Assembly: GCA_028736075.1 (NCBI GenBank)
Contig: CP117875.1
Coordinates: forward strand, 3,844,001-3,908,000
Source: Chryseobacterium sp. KACC 21268
GTDB lineage: Bacteria > Bacteroidota > Bacteroidia > Flavobacteriales > Weeksellaceae
Reading direction: 5' to 3'
Length of the DNA: 64,000 bases
Of the stretch, positions 5,728 to 45,965 are shown in pieces (the first letter of the stretch is position 1; each line of letters starts with the position of its first letter). Under the pieces are notes generated by a model. The model searched no databases. It saw only the letters and a list, made by a program, of their open reading frames with translations, and was not told the DNA's origin. The translations under genes were made by a program, and so were the position numbers.

Positions 5728-5843
5728 TATTTAAGATTTACTTTAATGCGAAATTACTGATTTTTTATGTGTCCTTCCAAGCTGAACTCAACATAATAAA
5801 GATGACTTTTTAACAATTAACAATTTTTAATAATAAAAAATGT

Positions 5844-6480: not shown

Positions 6481-7428
6481 CTATTTCCTCTCAATACTGT
6501 TGTAAGCCATTATGATTTTCTTCACAACCGGATGCCTCACGACATCTTCTTCCGTAAGATGCACAAAGCCAATTTCTTCTACATCTTTCAGAATGGTCAT
6601 AGATTCTTTGAGACCTGACTGCTGATTTTTCGGTAAATCAATTTGACTTGGATCGCCTGTGATGATAAATTTCGCATTCATACCCATTCTGGTCAGGAAC
6701 ATCTTCATTTGAGAATGTGTGGTGTTTTGCGCTTCATCTAGGATTACAAAAGCTTCATCCAGCGTTCTACCTCTCATAAATGCCAATGGTGCTACTTCGA
6801 TAATTCTTTTCTCCATGTAGCCTTCCAGCTTTTCGTGCGGAATCATATCTCTTAATGCATCGTACAGAGGCTGCATATATGGATCCAATTTCTCCTTGAG
6901 ATCACCAGGAAGGAAACCAAGACTTTCGCCAGCTTCTACTGCCGGTCTTGTAAGAATGATTCTTTTCACTTCTTTATCGCGAAGCGCTCTTACTGCCAAG
7001 GCAACACTGGTGTAAGTTTTTCCTGTTCCCGCCGGTCCAATGGCAAAAACCATGTCTTTCTTTTCAGAAACTTTTACCAGTTTTTTAAGATTGGTAGTTT
7101 TGGCTTTTATTACTTTTCCGTTGACACCTTTTACGATGATATCCTGATCGAAGACCAATTGCTTTTCGGAATCGTCCTTAAGTTTGAGTAGAGATTCCAA
7201 TTGTTTTACTTCTAAGGAATTGTGCTTGGAAATATAATCGGAGACATCATCCAATTTTTTCTTCAGCAAGTCCAAGGTTTCTCTGTTTCCCATTGCGAAG
7301 ACAAAGTTATCTCTACCAGTGATTTTGAGTGTGGGGAAGCTGGACTTTATCAAATTGAAATTTTGATTCTGAACACCATAAAAAGTTTTGGTGTTTATAC
7401 CCTCGAGTTCATAATTTATTTCGAACAT
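6481..7428 (-). CDS. phoH: PhoH-family ATPase
   Basis: Cytoplasmic P-loop ATPase of the PhoH family, linked in other bacteria to phosphate starvation and RNA metabolism. The 315-residue protein has an N-terminal region resembling a nucleic-acid-binding module (1-75), then the ATPase core: Walker A GPAGTGKT at 131-138, TRPAVEAGESLGFLPGD, and Walker B FVILDEAQNTTHSQMKMFLTRMG, with ITGDPSQIDLP as the sensor region and GFVHLTEEDVVRHPVV near the end, all hallmark PhoH blocks. Length is typical. A -7 box (7453-7460) lies just upstream. It is divergent from the SAM-hydrolase-family gene. The family is certain; the cellular role is not settled for this group. Confidence 0.92.
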   Translation of the reverse strand: MFEINYELEGINTKTFYGVQNQNFNLIKSSFPTLKITGRDNFVFAMGNRETLDLLKKKLDDVSDYISKHNSLEVKQLESLLKLKDDSEKQLVFDQDIIVKGVNGKVIKAKTTNLKKLVKVSEKKDMVFAIGPAGTGKTYTSVALAVRALRDKEVKRIILTRPAVEAGESLGFLPGDLKEKLDPYMQPLYDALRDMIPHEKLEGYMEKRIIEVAPLAFMRGRTLDEAFVILDEAQNTTHSQMKMFLTRMGMNAKFIITGDPSQIDLPKNQQSGLKESMTILKDVEEIGFVHLTEEDVVRHPVVKKIIMAYNSIERK

Positions 7429-7452
7429 ATATAATAATAGTGGTTAGTCTAA

Positions 7453-7460
7453 CAAATATA
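7453..7460 (-). promoter_or_regulatory. Bacteroidetes-type -7 box for phoH
   Basis: The minus strand reads TATATTTG, matching TAnnTTTG, 25 bases before the phoH start. No clear -33 TTG was found. Confidence 0.55.
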
Positions 7461-7505
7461 TGAATAGATTTGATACGATATTAGTCTTTAAAAATTGATT
7501 TATAT

Positions 7506-7514
7506 TAAATTTGC
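7506..7514 (+). promoter_or_regulatory. Bacteroidetes-type -7 box for the SAM-hydrolase gene
   Basis: TAAATTTGC matches TAnnTTTGC and lies 16 bases before ATG 7531. It overlaps the upstream in-frame candidate start region (7495), which argues for 7531 as the true start. Confidence 0.65.
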
Positions 7515-7530
7515 AACAAATACAAAAAAT

Positions 7531-8358
7531 ATGTCAGTCATTACACTCACTTCAGATTACGGCCTTGTGGACCATCGCGTTGCAAGCATGAAAGGTAAAA
7601 TCCTAAGCTGGAGCGAGGAAGTAAAAGTGGTTGACATTACACATAACATTACGGCTTACAATCTTTTACAAACAGCGTACATTGTCCGAAATGCTTATAA
7701 ATTCTTTCCGGAAGGCAGCATCCACATCGTTGCGGTGGACAGTTTTTATCATAAATCTAGAAAGAATATCATTGCTAAAATTGACGGTCACTATTTTATT
7801 TCTGCTGATAATGGAATTACAAATCTGATGTTTTTCGACATCAAGCCGGAAGCTATTTATGAAATTACGCTAAACAACCGTTTCGACGACAAGGTGATTT
7901 TCCCTGCAACTGAAATCTTTGTTCCTGCTGCAATGCATCTTTATAAAGGAGGTTTGCCGGAAGTGATTGGAAGAAAAATAAAATCTATAAAAGAAGTCTC
8001 TTTTCCAAGAGCAATCTATAATGAAGCTGAAAAAATGATCATCGGAGAAGTGATGTACATAGATAATTTTGGAAATGTAGTTTCTAATATTAGTCGAAAA
8101 TTTTTTGAGAAATACGCTTCAATTTCAGAGAAATTCACTGTGAAATTCAGGAATATTGTTTCGTCCAAAGTATCGGATCAATATACAGATGTTGTGACAG
8201 ACTGGGACAGAGAACAGGAATCTCATGGCAAATCATCTGTCATCTTCAATGATGCAGAACTCCTGGAAATCACCATCTACAAGGGCAATGTTTTGAACGG
8301 CGCTTCCTCCCTTTTCGGAATGACTACAGGCGAAAAAATTTATATCGAATTTGAATAA
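7531..8358 (+). CDS. SAM hydroxide adenosyltransferase family protein (DUF62)
   Basis: Member of the family that includes fluorinase, chlorinase and S-adenosylmethionine hydrolases, which splits SAM to adenosine and methionine using water. The 275-residue protein starts MSVITLTSDYGLVDHRVASMKGKI, containing the conserved Asp and the MKG segment; VVDITHNI, VVDSFYH and FISADNGITNLMF are further family blocks, and the C-terminal barrel begins near GEVMYIDNFGNVVSNI. A longer frame from 7495 would start inside the promoter, so ATG 7531 is used. It is divergent from phoH and has a strong terminator behind it. Halogenase activity is unlikely because the halide-loop insert is not apparent; water is the expected nucleophile. 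Confidence 0.88.
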   Translation: MSVITLTSDYGLVDHRVASMKGKILSWSEEVKVVDITHNITAYNLLQTAYIVRNAYKFFPEGSIHIVAVDSFYHKSRKNIIAKIDGHYFISADNGITNLMFFDIKPEAIYEITLNNRFDDKVIFPATEIFVPAAMHLYKGGLPEVIGRKIKSIKEVSFPRAIYNEAEKMIIGEVMYIDNFGNVVSNISRKFFEKYASISEKFTVKFRNIVSSKVSDQYTDVVTDWDREQESHGKSSVIFNDAELLEITIYKGNVLNGASSLFGMTTGEKIYIEFE

Positions 8359-38752: not shown

Positions 38753-40005
38753 ATGTTTTTATCAAAAACTTATTTCAAAAAACTAACTACACTTTCCCTG
38801 CTCGGAATTTCTGTTTTATATTTTGCTCAAGAAAAAGCACAAGTTGAACACGCCAACGAAAGTAACCTAGAAAAACATATTATTTACCTAGCTTCTGATG
38901 AATTGCAAGGCCGATTAACTGGTTCTGAAGGCGAAACAAAAGCAGCCAACTATCTTTCCGCCGAGCTTAAAAAATTAGGATTGAAGCCTTATGAAGGAAA
39001 AGATTTCATCCAAAATTTTGAATACAGCGTCAAACTAAATCCACACGACGACCAAACTTCGACACCTGTAAAAGGTAAAAACGTGATTGCAGTTCTGGAC
39101 AACAAGGCTGATAAAACCATTGTCATCGGTGCACATTACGACCATTTGGGTCTTAATGAACATCACAATTCTACTTTACCGGACAAATCCACAACGGTGC
39201 GGATGATAACGCTTCTGGAACAGCCGCTGTTTTGGAATTAGCAAGAATGTTTTCTCAAAATAAAACGAAGGAAAATGCAAATTACGTTTTCGCATTATTC
39301 TCGGGCGAAGAAGATGGATTGATGGGTTCTAAGAAACTTGCAGAAACAATTAAAACCACTTATCCAAATACCATTTTTATGATTAATATGGATATGGTTG
39401 GGCGACTTAATAACAACAAAGACCTAACTGTCGGTGGCGTTGGAACCTCTCCTATCCTACCCGGATTGGTGAAAAAATATAAGCCTGAAGGTTTCAATCT
39501 AGCGTTGGACGAATCCGGCGTTGGTCCAAGTGACCATACTTCTTTTTATTTGAAAGACATTCCGGTTCTTTTCCTTTTCACAGGCACGCACAACGACTAT
39601 CATAAACCGACAGATGATTCAGATAAAATCAATTATCCAGGCGGAACGGTGATTGCAAATTATGTTTTTGATTTGGCGAATGCTTTGGGAAATGAAAAAG
39701 AAATTCCGTTTGTGAAAACCAAAGTTGCAGCGAGCAAATCGGTTCCGAAATACAAAGTGAGTTTGGGAATTATGCCAAATTACGCCGACAGCAAAGACGG
39801 AATGGGCATCGATGGCGTCATCGACAACAGACCGGCTGCCAATGCTGGAATCCTGCAAGGTGATGTTCTGACAAAAATTGGAAAATGTGAGGTGAAAGAA
39901 GTCTATTCTTATATGGATTGTCTCTCAAAAGTGAATGCCGGCGAGGAACATTCTGTGACAGTCAAACGAAATGGCGAAGAAAAAATCTTCAATGTGAAAT
40001 TCTAA
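38753..40005 (+). pseudogene. M28 peptidase with PDZ-like domain, frameshifted
   Basis: Two overlapping frames make one protein. The first (38753-39241) has a signal peptide and KHIIYLASDELQGRLTGSEGETKAANYLSAELKKLG, then IGAHYDHLGLNEHHNST. The second (from about 39176) continues GQIHNGADDNASGTAAVLELARMFSQ, then FALFSGEEDGLMGSKKL, MINMDMVGRL, GPSDHTSFYL and a C-terminal PDZ-like domain (GIMPNYADSKDGMGIDGVIDNRPAANAGILQGDVL). The shift needs one base to be restored near 39170-39180, for example ACTTTTACC instead of ACTTTACC, giving HNSTFTGQIHNG. All metal-site residues exist once the frame is joined. It may be a true pseudogene or a homopolymer sequencing error. A strong terminator follows. Confidence 0.85.
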
Positions 40006-40221: not shown

Positions 40222-40845
40222 TTACAATTCCCGAATATTACGAAAGGTCAGATTAATCCGAGGTTTCATTGGTCTGGCGGATTTGGGAATCCGATGCTCC
40301 CAATTGGTTTGCAAATCACCTTTCATAATGAGCAATGAGCCGTGCTGAAGTGGCAACGTATATTTGTTCTGATGATTGTCCTTCTTTCGAAAATCAAAAT
40401 TCCTCACTTGCCCGAAACTGACCGATGCAATCACAGGGCGATTTCCCAATTCACTTTCCTTGTCGCGATGCCAAGCTACAGAATCGTTTCCGTCTCTGTA
40501 GAAATTAAGCAAGACAGAATTGAATTGATGACCAGTCAATTTCTGAATTTTATATTTCAAACCTAAAAGTTCCGGCGTCCACGCATTCACACTGAATTCA
40601 TTGCCTCCCAAATGATAAGATTTTTCATCGTCGCCGTACCAAGCAGTCAGTCGTGGCGTCAAAACTTCTCTGTCAAACATTTTTTGCGTTCTCTGTTTCC
40701 ACGGAACCGTTTCTATGAGTATCTTTTCAATTTCCGTTGCTCTTTCCTCAGACAAAAAATGTTCGGTATAATCCAATAACTCGGTCGGAAATTGGTAATA
40801 TTCGCCTGCATCAAACAAACTGAGTTGCATATCTGTACTGTACAT
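40222..40845 (-). CDS. alkB: AlkB-like alpha-ketoglutarate-dependent DNA repair dioxygenase with N-terminal clamp-like motif
   Basis: Fe(II)/2-oxoglutarate oxygenase that reverses alkylation damage such as 1-methyladenine. In 207 residues, WHRDKE supplies His126 and Asp128, HRIPKS supplies His184, and RINLTFR supplies the 2-oxoglutarate arginines (Arg196, Arg202); LLNFYRDGNDSVAWHRDKE is the usual lead-in. Residues 7-11 read QLSLF, which matches the sliding-clamp-binding pentapeptide consensus QL(S/D)LF, at the extreme N-terminus before the dioxygenase fold. It starts nine bases after the repressor gene on the same strand, so the two form one arm of the divergent cassette. The ATG at 40830 (MQLSLF) is an alternative start and keeps the motif. 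Confidence 0.9.
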   Translation of the reverse strand: MYSTDMQLSLFDAGEYYQFPTELLDYTEHFLSEERATEIEKILIETVPWKQRTQKMFDREVLTPRLTAWYGDDEKSYHLGGNEFSVNAWTPELLGLKYKIQKLTGHQFNSVLLNFYRDGNDSVAWHRDKESELGNRPVIASVSFGQVRNFDFRKKDNHQNKYTLPLQHGSLLIMKGDLQTNWEHRIPKSARPMKPRINLTFRNIREL

Positions 40846-40854
40846 TTTTAAAAT

Positions 40855-41631
40855 TTATTTGGAATTCGAAACCTTGTTGTCCAACGCTTTGATATCTTTT
40901 CGGATTTCCAAAAACATATCTTTCAAATTATAATTATCAAAATTATCGGGTTCAAAATCCTCAGGAAAAATCCCCGACGCATATTGCCAGATTTCCACAA
41001 TCTCACTCAACGGAATCTCATAAGGTTTGTAAAAAGAATTGTCCGCCGAAACCTCGATGGCTTTTTTCTTTTGACCTTTGAATCGTTTATAGGAAATCCC
41101 GTCATTTAAAGTCACGAAAATGTAACTTTTATTGATTTTCAAATCCTCAATATCTTCCACATATTTCCCGATGATGAACGAACCATCTTTGAAAGGAGGC
41201 ATAGAATCACCTTGCGTAGGGAAAGCCCTATATTTTCCATTCGTCAAAAATGGCAATGAAATCCTTTGAAGACTTTCGATATATTCCGGGTCGCTGTAAC
41301 CTGACAAATAGCCCATCGATGCTTTTTGAGGAATGATTTCGATGCTGTTATTTCCTGATTCATCAACGATAATTGGAAGGACAATTCTGTTATCGGGAAG
41401 ATTCATCATTTCTTCCAAAGGATATTTCCGGATGTCCACGGTCAAAAGCAAATCGATGCTGATGTGGAAGAATTTTGACATCGTGATAAGCACGTCATAC
41501 GGCGGTTCCGAACGGCCATCTTCATAAGAAACGTACCGTGACCTTGTGATAATTAAGGTATCTGCCAACTCCTGTTGAGTCGTCATTTTCTTAGCTCTTA
41601 AAAACCTGATGTTATCTGAAAAAATTGACAT
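40855..41631 (-). CDS. HTH repressor with S24 (LexA-like) peptidase-type domain
   Basis: A 258-residue regulator. The N-terminal HTH_XRE domain is residues 1-65 (FSDNIRFLRAKKMTTQQELADTLIITRSRYVSYEDGRSEPPYDVL). The C-terminal S24/LexA fold has Ser143 in TQGDSMPPF and Lys182 in ISYKRF, the Ser-Lys dyad of LexA and phage repressors. The usual Ala-Gly or Cys-Gly cleavage site is not evident; ASMGYLSGY near 104-112 has Met-Gly at the likely place, so RecA-stimulated self-cleavage is uncertain. The frame opens seven codons earlier, but ATG 41631 begins at MSIFSDNIRFLR. It is divergent from the Y-family polymerase gene and probably controls both arms through 41632-41692. Confidence 0.88.
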   Translation of the reverse strand: MSIFSDNIRFLRAKKMTTQQELADTLIITRSRYVSYEDGRSEPPYDVLITMSKFFHISIDLLLTVDIRKYPLEEMMNLPDNRIVLPIIVDESGNNSIEIIPQKASMGYLSGYSDPEYIESLQRISLPFLTNGKYRAFPTQGDSMPPFKDGSFIIGKYVEDIEDLKINKSYIFVTLNDGISYKRFKGQKKKAIEVSADNSFYKPYEIPLSEIVEIWQYASGIFPEDFEPDNFDNYNLKDMFLEIRKDIKALDNKVSNSK

Positions 41632-41692
41632 TGTTATAATTTGTAACAACAAATATAATCATTTTGTTTTAAAATGTAACTAATTTTGTCAC
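41632..41692. promoter_or_regulatory. divergent promoter region with two inverted operator-like sites
   Basis: Site 1 (minus strand) reads TGTTACAAATTATAACA and ends exactly at the repressor ATG. Site 2 (plus strand, from 41675) reads TGTAACTAATTTTGTCAC and ends exactly at the polymerase GTG. They share TGTwACwAATTwT-like spacing. A minus-strand -7 box TATATTTG lies at 41650-41657 next to site 1, and a plus-strand TAATTTTG lies at 41681-41688 inside site 2. Binding of the HTH-S24 repressor here would block both promoters. Confidence 0.6.
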
Positions 41693-42841
41693 GTGAATCG
41701 AGCAATTGTACATATGGATTTAGATACATTTTTTGTGTCCTGCGAAAGACTGAACCACTCAGAACTCAACGGAATCCCTCTGATAATCGGTGGTGGCGAC
41801 CGTGGCGTGGTGGCTTCTTGCTCGTATGAAGCGCGAAAATTTGGGGTGCGTTCTGCAATGCCGATTAGAATGGCACTCAGACTTTGCCCAGATGCAAAAG
41901 TAGTCAAAGGCGATTATGAGAATTTTTCTAAAATGTCTCATTTGGTAACCGAAGTGATTCAGGATAAAGTACCGTTGATGGAAAAAGCGAGCATCGATGA
42001 ATTTTATCTCGACCTGACCGGAATGGACAAATTTTTTGGCTGTTATCAATGGACTCAAGAAATTGCATCAGCTGTAAAAAAGGAAACCGGGCTTCCGATA
42101 AGTTTTGCTTTATCCAATAACAAAACCGTTTCAAAAATCGGAACCGGAGAATCTAAACCCGAAGGAAAATTTCAAATCAGGGAAACAGAAGTACAGCCTT
42201 TTTTAAATCCTTTATCTGTTAAAAAAATCCCGATGGTTGGTGATAAAACATTTCAGCTTCTTTCGAGAATTGGCGTACGAACCATTCACACCCTTTCCGA
42301 AATGCCCGTTTTAGTCCTTCAACAAATGATTGGCGCGAACGGAAAAGAACTTTGGAAAAAAGCAAATGGCATTGATGAAAATCCCGTCGTTCCCTACTCC
42401 GAAAAAAAATCAATTTCTTCAGAACGGACTTTTGTAACCGATTCCATTGACGTTTTGGAAATAAAAAGGTTGATTTCTGGAATGGCGGAAAAATTAGCCT
42501 ACCAATTGAGACAAGAAAAATGGCTGACTTCCACGGTCGTTATCAAAATCCGATATTCCAATTTTGATACGGAAACGAAGCAACATAAAATCGCTTACAC
42601 GTCTGCCGACCACACGTTGTCCAGAGTGGCGCTTGAACTTTTCAACAAAGTTTATACGAGGAGAATGCGAATCAGACTCGTTGGTTTGCGCTTCACAGAT
42701 TTGGTTCACGGCAATCATCAGATGAATCTTTTCGAAGATACTGAGGAACAAATGAGCCTTTACCAGACGATGGATTATCTAAAAAACCGATTCGGAAAAG
42801 ACGCGCTTGGACGAGCGTCCGGTTATGATTTTGGTAAATAA
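41693..42841 (+). CDS. dinB: Y-family DNA polymerase (DinB/Pol IV-like)
   Basis: Low-fidelity translesion polymerase of 382 residues. RAIVHMDLDTFFVSCERL holds the catalytic Asp9; SIDEFYLDLTGM holds Asp102 and Glu103, so the active site is complete, unlike ImuB proteins. SKIGTGESKPEGKFQI replaces the usual LAKIASDLNKPxG, and VGDKTFQLLSRIGVRTIHTLSEMP is the thumb HhH segment. Near the C-terminus, residues 343-347 read QMNLF, a likely clamp-binding motif. The start is GTG 41693; the in-frame ATG at 41714 would delete the first strand of the palm. The dnaE2-like gene follows after 20 bases. Confidence 0.92.
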   Translation: MNRAIVHMDLDTFFVSCERLNHSELNGIPLIIGGGDRGVVASCSYEARKFGVRSAMPIRMALRLCPDAKVVKGDYENFSKMSHLVTEVIQDKVPLMEKASIDEFYLDLTGMDKFFGCYQWTQEIASAVKKETGLPISFALSNNKTVSKIGTGESKPEGKFQIRETEVQPFLNPLSVKKIPMVGDKTFQLLSRIGVRTIHTLSEMPVLVLQQMIGANGKELWKKANGIDENPVVPYSEKKSISSERTFVTDSIDVLEIKRLISGMAEKLAYQLRQEKWLTSTVVIKIRYSNFDTETKQHKIAYTSADHTLSRVALELFNKVYTRRMRIRLVGLRFTDLVHGNHQMNLFEDTEEQMSLYQTMDYLKNRFGKDALGRASGYDFGK

Positions 42842-42861
42842 TTTTTTAAAACTTCAATTAA

Positions 42862-45800
42862 ATGTATCTCAACTGTCATTCTTATCATAGTCTTCGCTAC
42901 GGCACTTTATCGGTTCAAAATCTGGTAGAGCAAGCTTCCGAACTTGGAATCAAAACATTGGTTTTGAGCGATATTAATACGGTGACCGCCATTTATGATT
43001 TCAAAAAAGAATGTAAAAATGTTGGAATAAAACCAATTGCAGGCATTGAAGTGAGAAAAGAAAATCGACTACTTTACATTGCAATTGCAAAGGAATTCAG
43101 CGGAATTGGAGAAGTGAATAAGATTTTAACTGAACATAATTGCGACGGCGTTGAACTTTCTGAAACGGCACCGAATTACAATCAAGTATTTGTCATTTAT
43201 CCAATTCAAAATATTCCTGAAACTCTAAAAGAAAATGAATTCATCGGAATCCGAGAAGAGGAATTGAATCTGTTGATTCGACCGGAATTTAAAGATAAAA
43301 TCAACAAAATGGTTGTTCTTCAGCCTGTCACTTTCAGCACGAAAAAGGAATATAATCTTCACCGAATCCTAAGAGCGATTGACGGAAATACTTTGATTTC
43401 AAAACTTTCTAATGATGAGATTTGCAGAAAATCGGAACATTTCAAACCGGAAATCGATTTGATAAAATCATTCGAACAATATCCTGAAATCATTAACAAC
43501 ACAAAAAAAATTCTCGCTGAATGTAGTTTTGAATTTACATATAAAGAACCGCGAAGCACTGAAAATAAGAATAAAAAATATTTTAAAGAATCTCTGGAAG
43601 AGGATATGAAATTGTTGAGCGAGCTTGCTTATTCGGGATTGGAAAAACGATATGGCGCAAATGATGAAGTTGCCAGAACCAGAGTTGAAAAAGAACTCAA
43701 GGTGATTGGTGAACTCAAATTTTCGGCGTATTTTCTGATTACCTGGGACATCATTCAATACAGCAACCGAATGGGTTTTATGCACGTCGGGCGAGGAAGT
43801 GGCGCCAATTCCATCGTCAGTTATTGCCTTGAAATTACAGATATTTGTCCGATAGAACTGGACCTGTATTTTGAAAGATTTCTAAATCTGAACCGAACTT
43901 CTCCACCAGATTTCGATATCGACTGGAGTTGGCAAAACCGAGATGCAATCATCCAATATATTTTTGACACCTACGGAAAAGATAAAGTTGCTTTTTGCGG
44001 AACCGATGTTAAATTTAAATATAAATCGATTTTTCGGGAAGTGGGGAAAGCGTTTGGTTTGCCCAAAGAAGAGCTTGACAATCTGGCTGGTAAATCGATG
44101 GAATATCACGACCGAAACTCGATTGTAAAGTTGGTGCAAGAATATGGACAATTAATGGAAAAATTCCCGAACCAACGAAGTATGCACGCTTGCGGAATTT
44201 TGATTTCTGAAGAACCCATCACAACTTACACAGCTTTGGAAATGCCTCCAAAAGGATTTCCAATTGCTCAGTTTGATATGAATGTTGCAGAAGATATTGG
44301 TCTGGAAAAGTTTGACATCCTTTCTCAACGCGGTTTGGGAACCATCAATGACACCGTAGAATTAATCAAAAAAAACAGAGGCATTGAGATTGACATTCGG
44401 GACACTTCTATTTCTAAGGACGAATCTGTTTGCAATGAATATTTAGCGATTGGCAAAACAATCGGCTGTTTTTATATCGAAAGTCCGGCAATGCGTGGAC
44501 TGCTGAGAAGATTGAAATGTGACAATTACAGAACTTTGGTGGCCGCTTCCTCCATCATTCGACCCGGCGTGGCGCAAAGTGGAATGATGCGGGAATATAT
44601 TTTCCGGCACAACCATCCGAATCAGTTCGAATATTTTCATCCAGTCTTTGAGGAAAACCTTAAAGAAACTTATGGCATTATGGTCTATCAGGAGGATGTG
44701 ATTAAGATTGCCCAATATTTTGGGGGACTTTCTCACGCGGATGGTGACATTTTGAGACGGGCGATGAGTGGAAAGGAACGTTCAATTCAGAAATTAAATG
44801 AAGTTAAAGTCAACTTTTTTGAATCCTGTAAAAGAGAAGGACATTCCGAGCAAATGACGACGGAAGCTTTCCGGCAAATTCAATCTTTTGCAGGCTATTC
44901 TTTTTGTAAGGCGCACTCGGCTTCTTATGCAGTGGAAAGTTACCAGAGTTTGTATTTGAAGGTCTATTATCCGTTGGAATTTATGGTTTCGGTCATCAAT
45001 AATCAAGGTGGTTTTTATCGGACGGAAGTTTACATACACGAAGCGAGAATGTCTGGTGCTGATGTCCAAAATCCTTGCGTGAACAACAGCGAATATCAGA
45101 CGATTTTGAAAGGAAAAGAAATCTATCTGGGTTTTATGGTTTTGCAATCGCTGGAAACTAAAATCGCTCAAATCATTTCTGAAGAACGGGAGAAAAACGG
45201 CGATTACAAATCTCTGGAAAACTTCATCAAGCGCATTCCGATTGGGATTGAAACCATTCAAATCTTGATTTTCATTGGTGCTTTCAGATTTACGGGAAAG
45301 CCTAAAAACGAACTTTTGGTGGAAGCGAGATTGTTGTTAATCAATTATAAAGTAGAAAATAGAAATATTGCTCTTTTCGATGAACCGGCCAATGACTTTA
45401 AACTTCCTGAACTGAAACGAGAACAGTTTGAAGATGCTTTTGATGAAGTTGAAATCATCGGATTTCCTGTTTCGTGCAGTCCATTTGACTTGTTACAAAC
45501 CAAATTTAGAGGCAATGTTTTTGTAAAAGATTTGCTGAAGTTTCATAAAAGCCAAGTGAAAATGTTAGCATATTTGATTTCCAGAAAACACGTTCCCACG
45601 AAAAAAGGCGCAATGTTTTTCGGAACTTGGGTTGATGTGAATGGTGATTATTTTGATACCGCTCATTTTCCGGACAGTTTGGAAAAATATCAATTTCAAG
45701 GTGGCGGCTGTTATCTTTTGCTGGGAACCGTGGAAGTGGATTATCATTTTCCGACCATCACGATTCATAAAATGGCAAAGATGCCGATGATTCCTGACCC

Positions 45801-45930
45801 ACGCTACGCTTATGACAAGGAAAAGCAGTACGATGTCCACAAGCAAATCAGAGAAGATGTCAGTATGACGTCCCGAAAACCTTATCCACAGGCACACGAG
45901 ATTAATTTGCCAAGGCAGAAGTTTAATTAA
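42862..45930 (+). CDS. dnaE2: error-prone DnaE2-like DNA polymerase III alpha subunit
   Basis: C-family polymerase of 1022 residues, at the short end for alpha subunits (about 1050-1170) and typical of DnaE2-like proteins. The N-terminal PHP domain (1-70) is degenerate: MYLNCHSYHSLRYGTL and VLSDINTVTAIYDF lack the TDH-type metal motif, so proofreading by PHP is unlikely. The palm has MHVGRGSGANSIVSYCL and PPDFDIDWSWQNRD, with catalytic Asp near 349-351; SMHACGILISEEP, FDILSQRGLGTINDT and KAHSASYAVESYQSLYLKVYYPLEF are conserved blocks. NIALF at 835-839 sits where the clamp motif usually lies. A C-terminal OB-like region (GTWVDVNGDYFDTAHFP) follows. It lies in one operon with the Y-family polymerase, 20 bases apart. 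Confidence 0.9.
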   Translation: MYLNCHSYHSLRYGTLSVQNLVEQASELGIKTLVLSDINTVTAIYDFKKECKNVGIKPIAGIEVRKENRLLYIAIAKEFSGIGEVNKILTEHNCDGVELSETAPNYNQVFVIYPIQNIPETLKENEFIGIREEELNLLIRPEFKDKINKMVVLQPVTFSTKKEYNLHRILRAIDGNTLISKLSNDEICRKSEHFKPEIDLIKSFEQYPEIINNTKKILAECSFEFTYKEPRSTENKNKKYFKESLEEDMKLLSELAYSGLEKRYGANDEVARTRVEKELKVIGELKFSAYFLITWDIIQYSNRMGFMHVGRGSGANSIVSYCLEITDICPIELDLYFERFLNLNRTSPPDFDIDWSWQNRDAIIQYIFDTYGKDKVAFCGTDVKFKYKSIFREVGKAFGLPKEELDNLAGKSMEYHDRNSIVKLVQEYGQLMEKFPNQRSMHACGILISEEPITTYTALEMPPKGFPIAQFDMNVAEDIGLEKFDILSQRGLGTINDTVELIKKNRGIEIDIRDTSISKDESVCNEYLAIGKTIGCFYIESPAMRGLLRRLKCDNYRTLVAASSIIRPGVAQSGMMREYIFRHNHPNQFEYFHPVFEENLKETYGIMVYQEDVIKIAQYFGGLSHADGDILRRAMSGKERSIQKLNEVKVNFFESCKREGHSEQMTTEAFRQIQSFAGYSFCKAHSASYAVESYQSLYLKVYYPLEFMVSVINNQGGFYRTEVYIHEARMSGADVQNPCVNNSEYQTILKGKEIYLGFMVLQSLETKIAQIISEEREKNGDYKSLENFIKRIPIGIETIQILIFIGAFRFTGKPKNELLVEARLLLINYKVENRNIALFDEPANDFKLPELKREQFEDAFDEVEIIGFPVSCSPFDLLQTKFRGNVFVKDLLKFHKSQVKMLAYLISRKHVPTKKGAMFFGTWVDVNGDYFDTAHFPDSLEKYQFQGGGCYLLLGTVEVDYHFPTITIHKMAKMPMIPDPRYAYDKEKQYDVHKQIREDVSMTSRKPYPQAHEINLPRQKFN

Positions 45931-45965
45931 AACAAAAAAACGACCGCCAAAGCAATCGTTTTAAT

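Follow-up and report, generated by a model that had tools for sequence, protein, structure and literature searches.

The window analysed here comprises 64,000 nucleotides of Chryseobacterium sp. KACC 21268 (positions 3,844,001-3,908,000 of a single-contig genome of 4.07 Mb) and carries a four-gene cassette that faces outward from one short intergenic region. We observed a repressor gene followed by a gene for an AlkB-type dioxygenase on one side, and a Y-family polymerase gene (PolY) followed by a gene for a DnaE2-type polymerase on the other. Exactly 61 bases separate the repressor ATG (41631) from the PolY GTG (41693). An earlier note on this DNA had described the same four divergent genes, and we confirmed each of their coordinates. 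In the following, L and G numbers denote loci and genomes.

Features of the cassette in the window
Feature	Position	Strand	Remarks
AlkB-type 2-oxoglutarate/Fe(II) dioxygenase	40222..40842	-	206 amino acids (aa); PF13532 117 bits; alternative ATG start possible at 40845; lies 12 bases past the repressor as the second gene of that arm
Helix-turn-helix (HTH) + S24 repressor	40855..41631	-	258 aa; HTH PF12844/PF01381 above cut-off, HTH_19 39 bits
Putative operator O1, TTGTTATAATTTGTAACAA	41631..41649		overlaps the repressor start codon; 4-N5-4 palindrome
-7 box of the repressor-AlkB operon, TATATTTG	41650..41657	-	predicted promoter
Putative operator O2, TTTTAAAATGTAA, degenerate	41667..41679		covers the PolY promoter; 33 bases from O1
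-7 box of the polymerase operon, TAATTTTG	41681..41688	+	ends 4 bases before the GTG start
PolY, active Y-family polymerase, Bacteroidetes PolY2-like	41693..42841	+	382 aa; GTG start; PF00817/PF11799, IMS 147 bits
PolY sliding-clamp-type motif, QMNLF	42719..42733	+	Q343 and F347 in 110/110
PolY RecA-NT-like motif, LKNRFGKDALGRAS	42779..42820	+	residues 363-376; R366 and G368 in 110/110
DnaE2-type Pol III alpha	42862..45930	+	1022 aa; Pol III alpha 220 bits; PF07733, PF17657, PF14579, PF02811

The PolY residues to which we assign catalytic roles were retained among its aligned relatives (D9 and D102 in 110/110, E103 in 109/110), which bears out the earlier description of this polymerase as catalytically complete. 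Likewise, three aspartates that are presumably catalytic in DnaE2 were present in 106/106 aligned relatives. We take the QMNLF of PolY to be of the sliding-clamp motif type. The PolY sequence stops after a tail that, judged by eye, resembles the RecA N-terminus encoded in the same genome (LDKTYGKGTVMTLG), and it has no ImuB-C. In AlkB, the HxD...H iron site and two arginines (H125, D127, H183, R195, R201) were found in 45/45 rows with letters (6/51 rows were gapped). Since AlkB does not reach the NCBIfam AlkB equivalog cut-offs (28.6 of 267 bits), it is a divergent member of its family. The repressor scores 22.5 bits against Peptidase_S24 (PF00717), just below the 23.3 cut-off, and its Ser-Lys dyad (Ser143 and Lys182) was present in 75/75 rows with letters, with 2/77 rows gapped. 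Its cleavage position is Met106-Gly107, where Met-Gly occurs in 60/75 rows and Ala in 15/75. Judged by its sequence, the repressor is a CI-type HTH and S24 protein and an apparent relative of the non-canonical LexA proteins. Because the scissile bond is Met-Gly and not Ala-Gly, we describe it as a relative that would work like one.

The intergenic region holds two promoter boxes and two candidate operators. The sequence TAnnTTTG, which we take to be the Bacteroidetes -7 consensus, faces the repressor in 74/74 measured spacers (7% of shuffled spacers) and faces PolY in 66/74 (5% of shuffled). Spacers were exactly 61 bases long in 46/74 cases and 60-62 bases in 53/74; those of Flavobacterium were longer and have space for a leader. 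Among the 69 spacers that carry a TAnnTTTG/A box, 53 have the PolY box 4 or 5 bases ahead of the start codon; in the window the distance is 4, which predicts a leaderless polymerase mRNA in Weeksellaceae. Operators were placed in three ways: by a search for the best palindrome, which gave artefacts in some spacers, by a mixed rule, and by a fixed offset from the promoter boxes. All operator counts and tests use the fixed offset. O1 lies between the -7 box and the start codon of the repressor, and at least 3 of its 4 pairs are palindromic in 75/93 distinct spacers, compared to 11% of other spacer positions. The constant 33-base distance between O1 and O2 reflects the spacing of the promoters, because the promoter box decided which distance within 32-35 was used to place O2.

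The half-site letters vary among cassettes (GTTAY, GTCAT, GATAC, GCTAT, GGGAC, GGTAT), and O2 follows. We observed that this variation goes together with a few repressor residues within or beside the recognition helix: Val34 is paired with GTTA or GTCA, Gly31 plus Ala, Gly or Ser34 with GCTA, Val31 with GATA, Asp31 with GGGA and, in one repressor, Glu31 with GGTA. The combination of Asp31-Arg32 with GGGA recurs in Chryseobacterium (L020), in a genome of the same family (L123), in the genus of the window (L126) and in Flavobacterium (L083); operators of the GGGA type are mostly asymmetric (GGGAC with GATAC or similar). In partial Mantel tests that controlled for the rest of the protein, residues 31/34/35/38 correlated with the O1 letters (r = 0.62), O1 correlated with O2 (r = 0.41) and the helix correlated with O2 (r = 0.49), with each P at about 0.001, the floor of 1000 permutations. 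These tests used 96 distinct repressors out of 102 entries, after excluding L113 and L114 and collapsing identical proteins. In every divergence bin, repressors with the same four residues differed on average in 0.02-0.67 of six operator letters, compared to 2.2-3.3 for repressors with different residues. Written as rules, which were formalised at the end of the analysis, the code gave both O1 halves for 50 of the 75 repressors of the first set and at least one half for 70; one repressor was contradicted (L080) and four had no rule. For 21 distinct repressors fetched after the code had been noted, both halves agreed in 12 and one half in 6, none was contradicted and 3 had no rule. This covariation is the main evidence that one repressor may address both arms, and it lends support from sequence to the shared switch proposed in the earlier note.

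To characterize the reach of the repressor, we searched the genome with an operator pattern built from TNA-type half sites only. This returned 31 sites at up to 2 mismatches, compared to 18 for the reversed control, and the only two sites with 0 mismatches were both cassette operators, one of them O1. The 250 bases before recA hold no operator of the cassette type. Eight near-matches were inspected, four inside genes and four outside. One of the latter, a two-mismatch site at genome position 692,894 (L145, 1501-1519), lies 8 bases before a gene for a 328-aa protein and may be a chance match. The others lie about 55 bases before a gene for a 516-aa protein (L156), before a small frame (L155), and in a place with no frame of 60 aa nearby (L157). 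We considered a global SOS regulon under this repressor and set it aside, as the only perfect sites are the two cassette operators and the near-matches, some of which may be genuine sites, have no evident SOS gene. Canonical LexA (PF01726) had no match in the genome, while 10/14 control genomes matched. A search of the genome with PF00717 did not pick up the repressor of the cassette in the window, and the number of S24 proteins may thus be too low. For ImuA, the PF00154 search of the genome found only RecA, at 3.48 Mb, and ImuA may escape this model.

Next, we compared the cassette with its relatives, using the best 80 loci encoding PolY with one genome per species; more loci matched. The nearest named PolY matches are in Epilithonimonas and Chryseobacterium and are 98-99% identical. 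A divergent repressor match was found in 77/80 loci (partial in L018) and DnaE2 behind PolY in 78/80, frequencies that argue against a chance arrangement of repressor, PolY and DnaE2. AlkB lies on the repressor side in 24 of these loci, after DnaE2 in 3 and elsewhere in 2, and was not found in 51, although some contigs end near the locus. Of the four neighbours expected from the earlier note, the repressor-PolY-DnaE2 core thus holds in relatives, and in most of them AlkB does not. One locus (L084) has an AlkB that is 44% identical and no divergent repressor match. In Chryseobacterium sp. FP211-J200 (L010, 8211-8969), counted among the 80, an internal deletion in the repressor gene fuses the HTH start into the AlkB frame and leaves a cassette without a full repressor of its own. 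In G095 (L104, 2681-5962), the repressor and AlkB matches are whole, and PolY and DnaE2 have decayed to pieces. A further region of 15 kb (L097) encodes, at 7290-8096, an S24-type regulator that stands alone and differs at its N-terminus, and has no other match to the four cassette proteins.

The polymerase arm itself appears to be exchangeable. Two genomes of the same genus (L099 and L100) have a repressor (93% and 90% identical) and an AlkB (94% and 87%) at the same chromosomal site, next to a Y-family protein that is only 25-26% identical to PolY. No DnaE2 match was found at the cassette site of either genome. The best NCBIfam match of the L099 protein is UmuC, with 326 bits, under the 431 cut-off. 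DNA homology to the window spans 40221 to 41688/41689, ending immediately ahead of the PolY start, and begins again at 45954, just past the DnaE2 stop, and the spacer keeps O1, O2 and the promoter boxes. The sequences thus suggest an exact exchange between PolY-DnaE2 and UmuC at one site, in either direction, with the switch and AlkB kept.

Taken together, we read the cassette as a local, modular SOS unit that would respond to DNA damage in general and often includes AlkB as an accessory, and give this reading a probability of about 0.78. It retains from the earlier interpretation the two active polymerases, the single divergent repressor, the AlkB gene behind it and the two addressed promoters, and drops the mutasome tied to alkylation. 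In an undamaged cell, the S24 repressor would sit on O1 and, more weakly, on O2, and hold down the repressor-AlkB and PolY-DnaE2 operons. Upon damage, RecA filaments on single-stranded DNA would trigger self-cleavage of the repressor, and both arms, including AlkB, would rise together. PolY, on the clamp and probably on RecA through its RecA-NT-like tail, would then copy past lesions with DnaE2, possibly as a complex, while AlkB would directly reverse base alkylation and leave fewer lesions that require bypass. The switch would be the conserved part, and the arms its exchangeable cargo: PolY-DnaE2 or UmuC, and AlkB present or absent, on either arm. This scheme draws on related regulators described in PMC8565304, cited here and below from its main text, figures and supplements aside. 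That text reports S24 SOS regulators of Bacteroidetes ('non-canonical LexA'), with up to five paralogues in Weeksellaceae and diverged palindromes. The regulator of E. anophelis binds TTAC-AAATT-GTAA in an electrophoretic mobility shift assay, and mitomycin C induces both this regulator and the polymerase opposite. The text also notes DinB-DnaE operons and proposes a phage origin for the regulators.

We then assessed how closely AlkB is linked to the unit. The family sample comprised 100 genomes, of which 39 contained PolY, at 45 places in total. An AlkB lay no more than 8 kb away at 8 of these places, in 7 cases on the side of the repressor and in one behind DnaE2. An order-level sample of 118 genomes gave 47 PolY places in families other than that of the window; AlkB was nearby in 9, all behind DnaE2 and all in one genus (9/15 there). 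The named Flavobacterium loci L074 and L084 have the same layout with AlkB behind DnaE2, and the AlkB stretch of L169 is that of L074. Over both samples, AlkB lies within 8 kb of PolY in 17/92 places, compared to about 0.6 expected (0.4 + 0.2) if genes are placed uniformly and genome sizes are rounded. For L171, the search detected an AlkB that the frame listing missed. From the second count we left out 25 Weeksellaceae places that the order-level search had returned, as most of them are also part of the family sample; in the omitted genomes new to the sample (G175, G178, G185, G198), AlkB lies away from PolY. The linked AlkBs form two separate clades, one of Weeksellaceae (100/100) and one of Flavobacterium (100/100), in a tree that holds only four unlinked AlkBs of other types and whose long branches call for caution. 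Two recruitments are the simplest reading of these separate clades. AlkB, present in one of the two arms at 27 of the best 80 loci, is thus optional, but its linkage exceeds chance and involves two lineages and both arms. In the genus with the linked AlkBs, one locus (L170, 3333-10465) extends to a larger damage-processing operon of PolY, DnaE2, a DEDD exonuclease/GIY-YIG protein, an exonuclease III and AlkB.

The rival that fares best, though we regard it as unlikely, is that AlkB is a passenger whose place next to the repressor is inherited and which is functionally unconnected to the polymerases. It would account for the 51 of the best 80 loci in which AlkB was not found. Moreover, the two samples contain 26 places with a cassette-type AlkB (at least 59% identical), of which 12 are linked to a repressor or DnaE2 and one is a fragment that was not fetched; the 13 other regions (L101-103, L105-108, L173-178) have no repressor or polymerase match, which counts against a strict link. 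A passenger, however, does not explain the 17/92 linkage, in which AlkB always has the orientation of a member of one of the two arms, or the presence of two separate AlkB clades behind the repressor or DnaE2. Nor does it explain why repressor and AlkB persist next to a decayed (L104) or exchanged (L099, L100) polymerase arm. In G060 (L103), a palindrome (GATATAATTTGTATC) of the type of that genome's L111 repressor stands just after a TATATTTG box upstream of a solo AlkB at 5788. Among the upstream regions of seven solo cassette-type AlkBs viewed by eye, only L103 had a matching palindrome, and regulation in trans is a lead only. We also looked for other alkylation-repair genes in the repressor arm and rejected the neighbours of 166, 209 and 345-361 aa, which by eye are peptidase-like, an unrelated secreted type and patatin-like, respectively, and thus ordinary neighbours.

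A Y-family search of the genome led to four places: a solo DinB, the window cassette, a full second cassette and a decayed third. The second (L005) is complete, with DnaE2 and PolY on the minus strand and the repressor and AlkB on the plus strand. The third (L006) has an intact repressor, an AlkB match split over two frames and a PolY match to residues 3-81 only, with no DnaE2 match within 19 kb. Another AlkB, 40% identical, lies elsewhere in the genome, and a decayed AlkB piece lies at 2.26 Mb. We asked whether insulation between paralogues is a selected trait and discarded the idea: 17/18 same-genome pairs differ in operator, but 26% of label shuffles give as few identical pairs, which is not significant. 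Several copies in one genome, one of them decayed, would fit a remnant of a prophage or plasmid immunity switch with translesion synthesis cargo, kept by transfer and not by host benefit. Relatives of PolY also occur on two plasmids that PLSDB predicts to be mobile: one from Chryseobacterium, mobilizable, where the divergent gene is annotated 'LexA family', and one from Emticicia, conjugative, where it is an HTH gene. The phage origin proposed in PMC8565304 points in the same direction. We nevertheless consider such a remnant improbable, more so than the passenger, as PolY relatives appear in only 5 of 72,556 plasmid records, the repressor has 1 weak match in 50,697 phage records (32% identical over 57% of the repressor), and the window copy has the same chromosomal neighbours in relatives. 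By eye, the neighbouring frames encode peptidase-like and ClpS-like proteins. The peptidase-like protein is broken into overlapping frames (38753-39241 and 39232-40005) and resembles a frameshift or pseudogene.

Several observations weigh against the reading of the cassette as a local SOS unit with one switch for both arms. O2 is less palindromic than O1, with at least 3 of 4 pairs in 25/86 spacers over a background of 11%. Given this poor palindrome, the case for direct repression of the polymerase arm depends on covariation. The P values of the Mantel tests are optimistic because the four helix residues were picked after the alignment had been viewed, and the tests lessen the effect of shared ancestry and do not remove it. 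At O1, the code matched one half only in 20/75 and 6/21 repressors, and repressors without Arg32 (L053, L062, L128) go with a different operator, TGTGA. Furthermore, the scissile Ala-Gly that is conserved according to PMC8565304 is Met-Gly in the window repressor. Together with expression and binding that are predicted from the DNA, the weak O2 and the Met-Gly bond are the main weaknesses. The weakness of O2 could also mean that the repressor governs only its own operon through O1 and that the polymerase arm is otherwise regulated. We judge this quite unlikely, given that O2 covaries with O1 and the helix, that exchange of the polymerase arm left the spacer in place, O2 and promoter box included, and that mitomycin C induces both genes in E. 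anophelis (PMC8565304).

Least probable is a switch tuned to alkylation, with AlkB marking the inducing lesion, and with it goes the alkylation-tied Bacteroidetes mutasome of the earlier note: AlkB was probably recruited twice, and the text of PMC5261740 describes the translesion polymerases ImuC and DinB as acting in Pseudomonas alkylation tolerance, but AlkB was not found at 51/80 close loci or at 75/92 PolY places, so that most loci with the same switch lack it, the four proteins contain no methyl-accepting (Ada) domain, and the inducer published for a relative is mitomycin C (PMC8565304).

We compared the local SOS unit with systems already described, and its core is known: an active PolY/DnaE2 pair (PMC6511836 and PMC12926913, main texts) and S24 SOS regulators are both in print. 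It resembles the non-canonical LexA systems of PMC8565304 in its CI-like HTH and S24 domains, in the 4-N5-4 palindrome in its own promoter and in the error-prone polymerase opposite, and differs in the Met-Gly bond and in a regulon that is local to the cassette in the window genome. The main text of that paper mentions neither AlkB, COG3145, 'alkylat' or 'dioxygenase' nor 'recognition helix' or 'two binding sites'. With the Bacteroidetes PolY2 and DnaE2 or DnaE2B-PolY-RecA arrangements (PMC6511836, PMC12926913), it shares two apparently active polymerases in one operon and a RecA-NT-like tail without ImuB-C. AlkB is mentioned in neither of these main texts, and the UmuC exchange was found here. 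According to the text of PMC6511836, Figure 8 aside, lexA is often in PolY operons generally, and no regulator is named for the Bacteroidetes pair. Like the ImuA-ImuB-DnaE2 mutasome, the unit combines a damage-inducible type of DnaE2, a Y-family partner and an S24 repressor, but its Y-family partner is active, ImuA is not adjacent, AlkB is present and the repressor is not canonical LexA. HdiR of Lactococcus/Streptococcus and UmuDAb of Acinetobacter are similar in that a non-LexA S24 repressor acts over itself and an error-prone polymerase (PMC8565304). Both belong to a different lineage. To our knowledge, neither has a DnaE2 or AlkB arm. In Streptomyces venezuelae, alkB and dnaE2-dinP are damage-induced and co-regulated by LexA, and by their locus numbers they lie apart there (PMC9380542, text). 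In the open literature, figures and supplements aside, we found no paper that joins AlkB to a PolY-DnaE2/S24 unit, and some of this may appear in Figures 8A and 8C of PMC8565304. What looks new is the code that relates repressor residues to operator letters, together with the degenerate O2 and the exact exchange of arms.

A broader view, which we hold tentatively and at slightly less than even odds, is that the cassette is a plug-in SOS module built on a multi-copy and partly plasmid-borne switch. About four residues in or near the recognition helix would shift its specificity, with both operators following. The arms would be interchangeable: PolY-DnaE2 or UmuC would serve as polymerases, and AlkB could be added, as could exonuclease III and a DnaQ/GIY-YIG nuclease in Flavobacterium. 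The direct undoing of base damage would be coupled to two bypass polymerases, and several copies that differ in operator address would coexist in one cell without canonical LexA. If this is true, several damage-inducible mutagenesis units coexist in one bacterium, each with its own operator address, and polymerases or repair enzymes can be swapped under a fixed switch. The table of helix residues and operators offers a cheap and direct test of how an SOS repressor changes its address, and the syntenic exchange of PolY-DnaE2 and UmuC is a natural experiment on the interchangeable roles of two bypass systems. In conclusion, AlkB and bypass polymerases in one circuit would tie error-free repair to error-prone tolerance.

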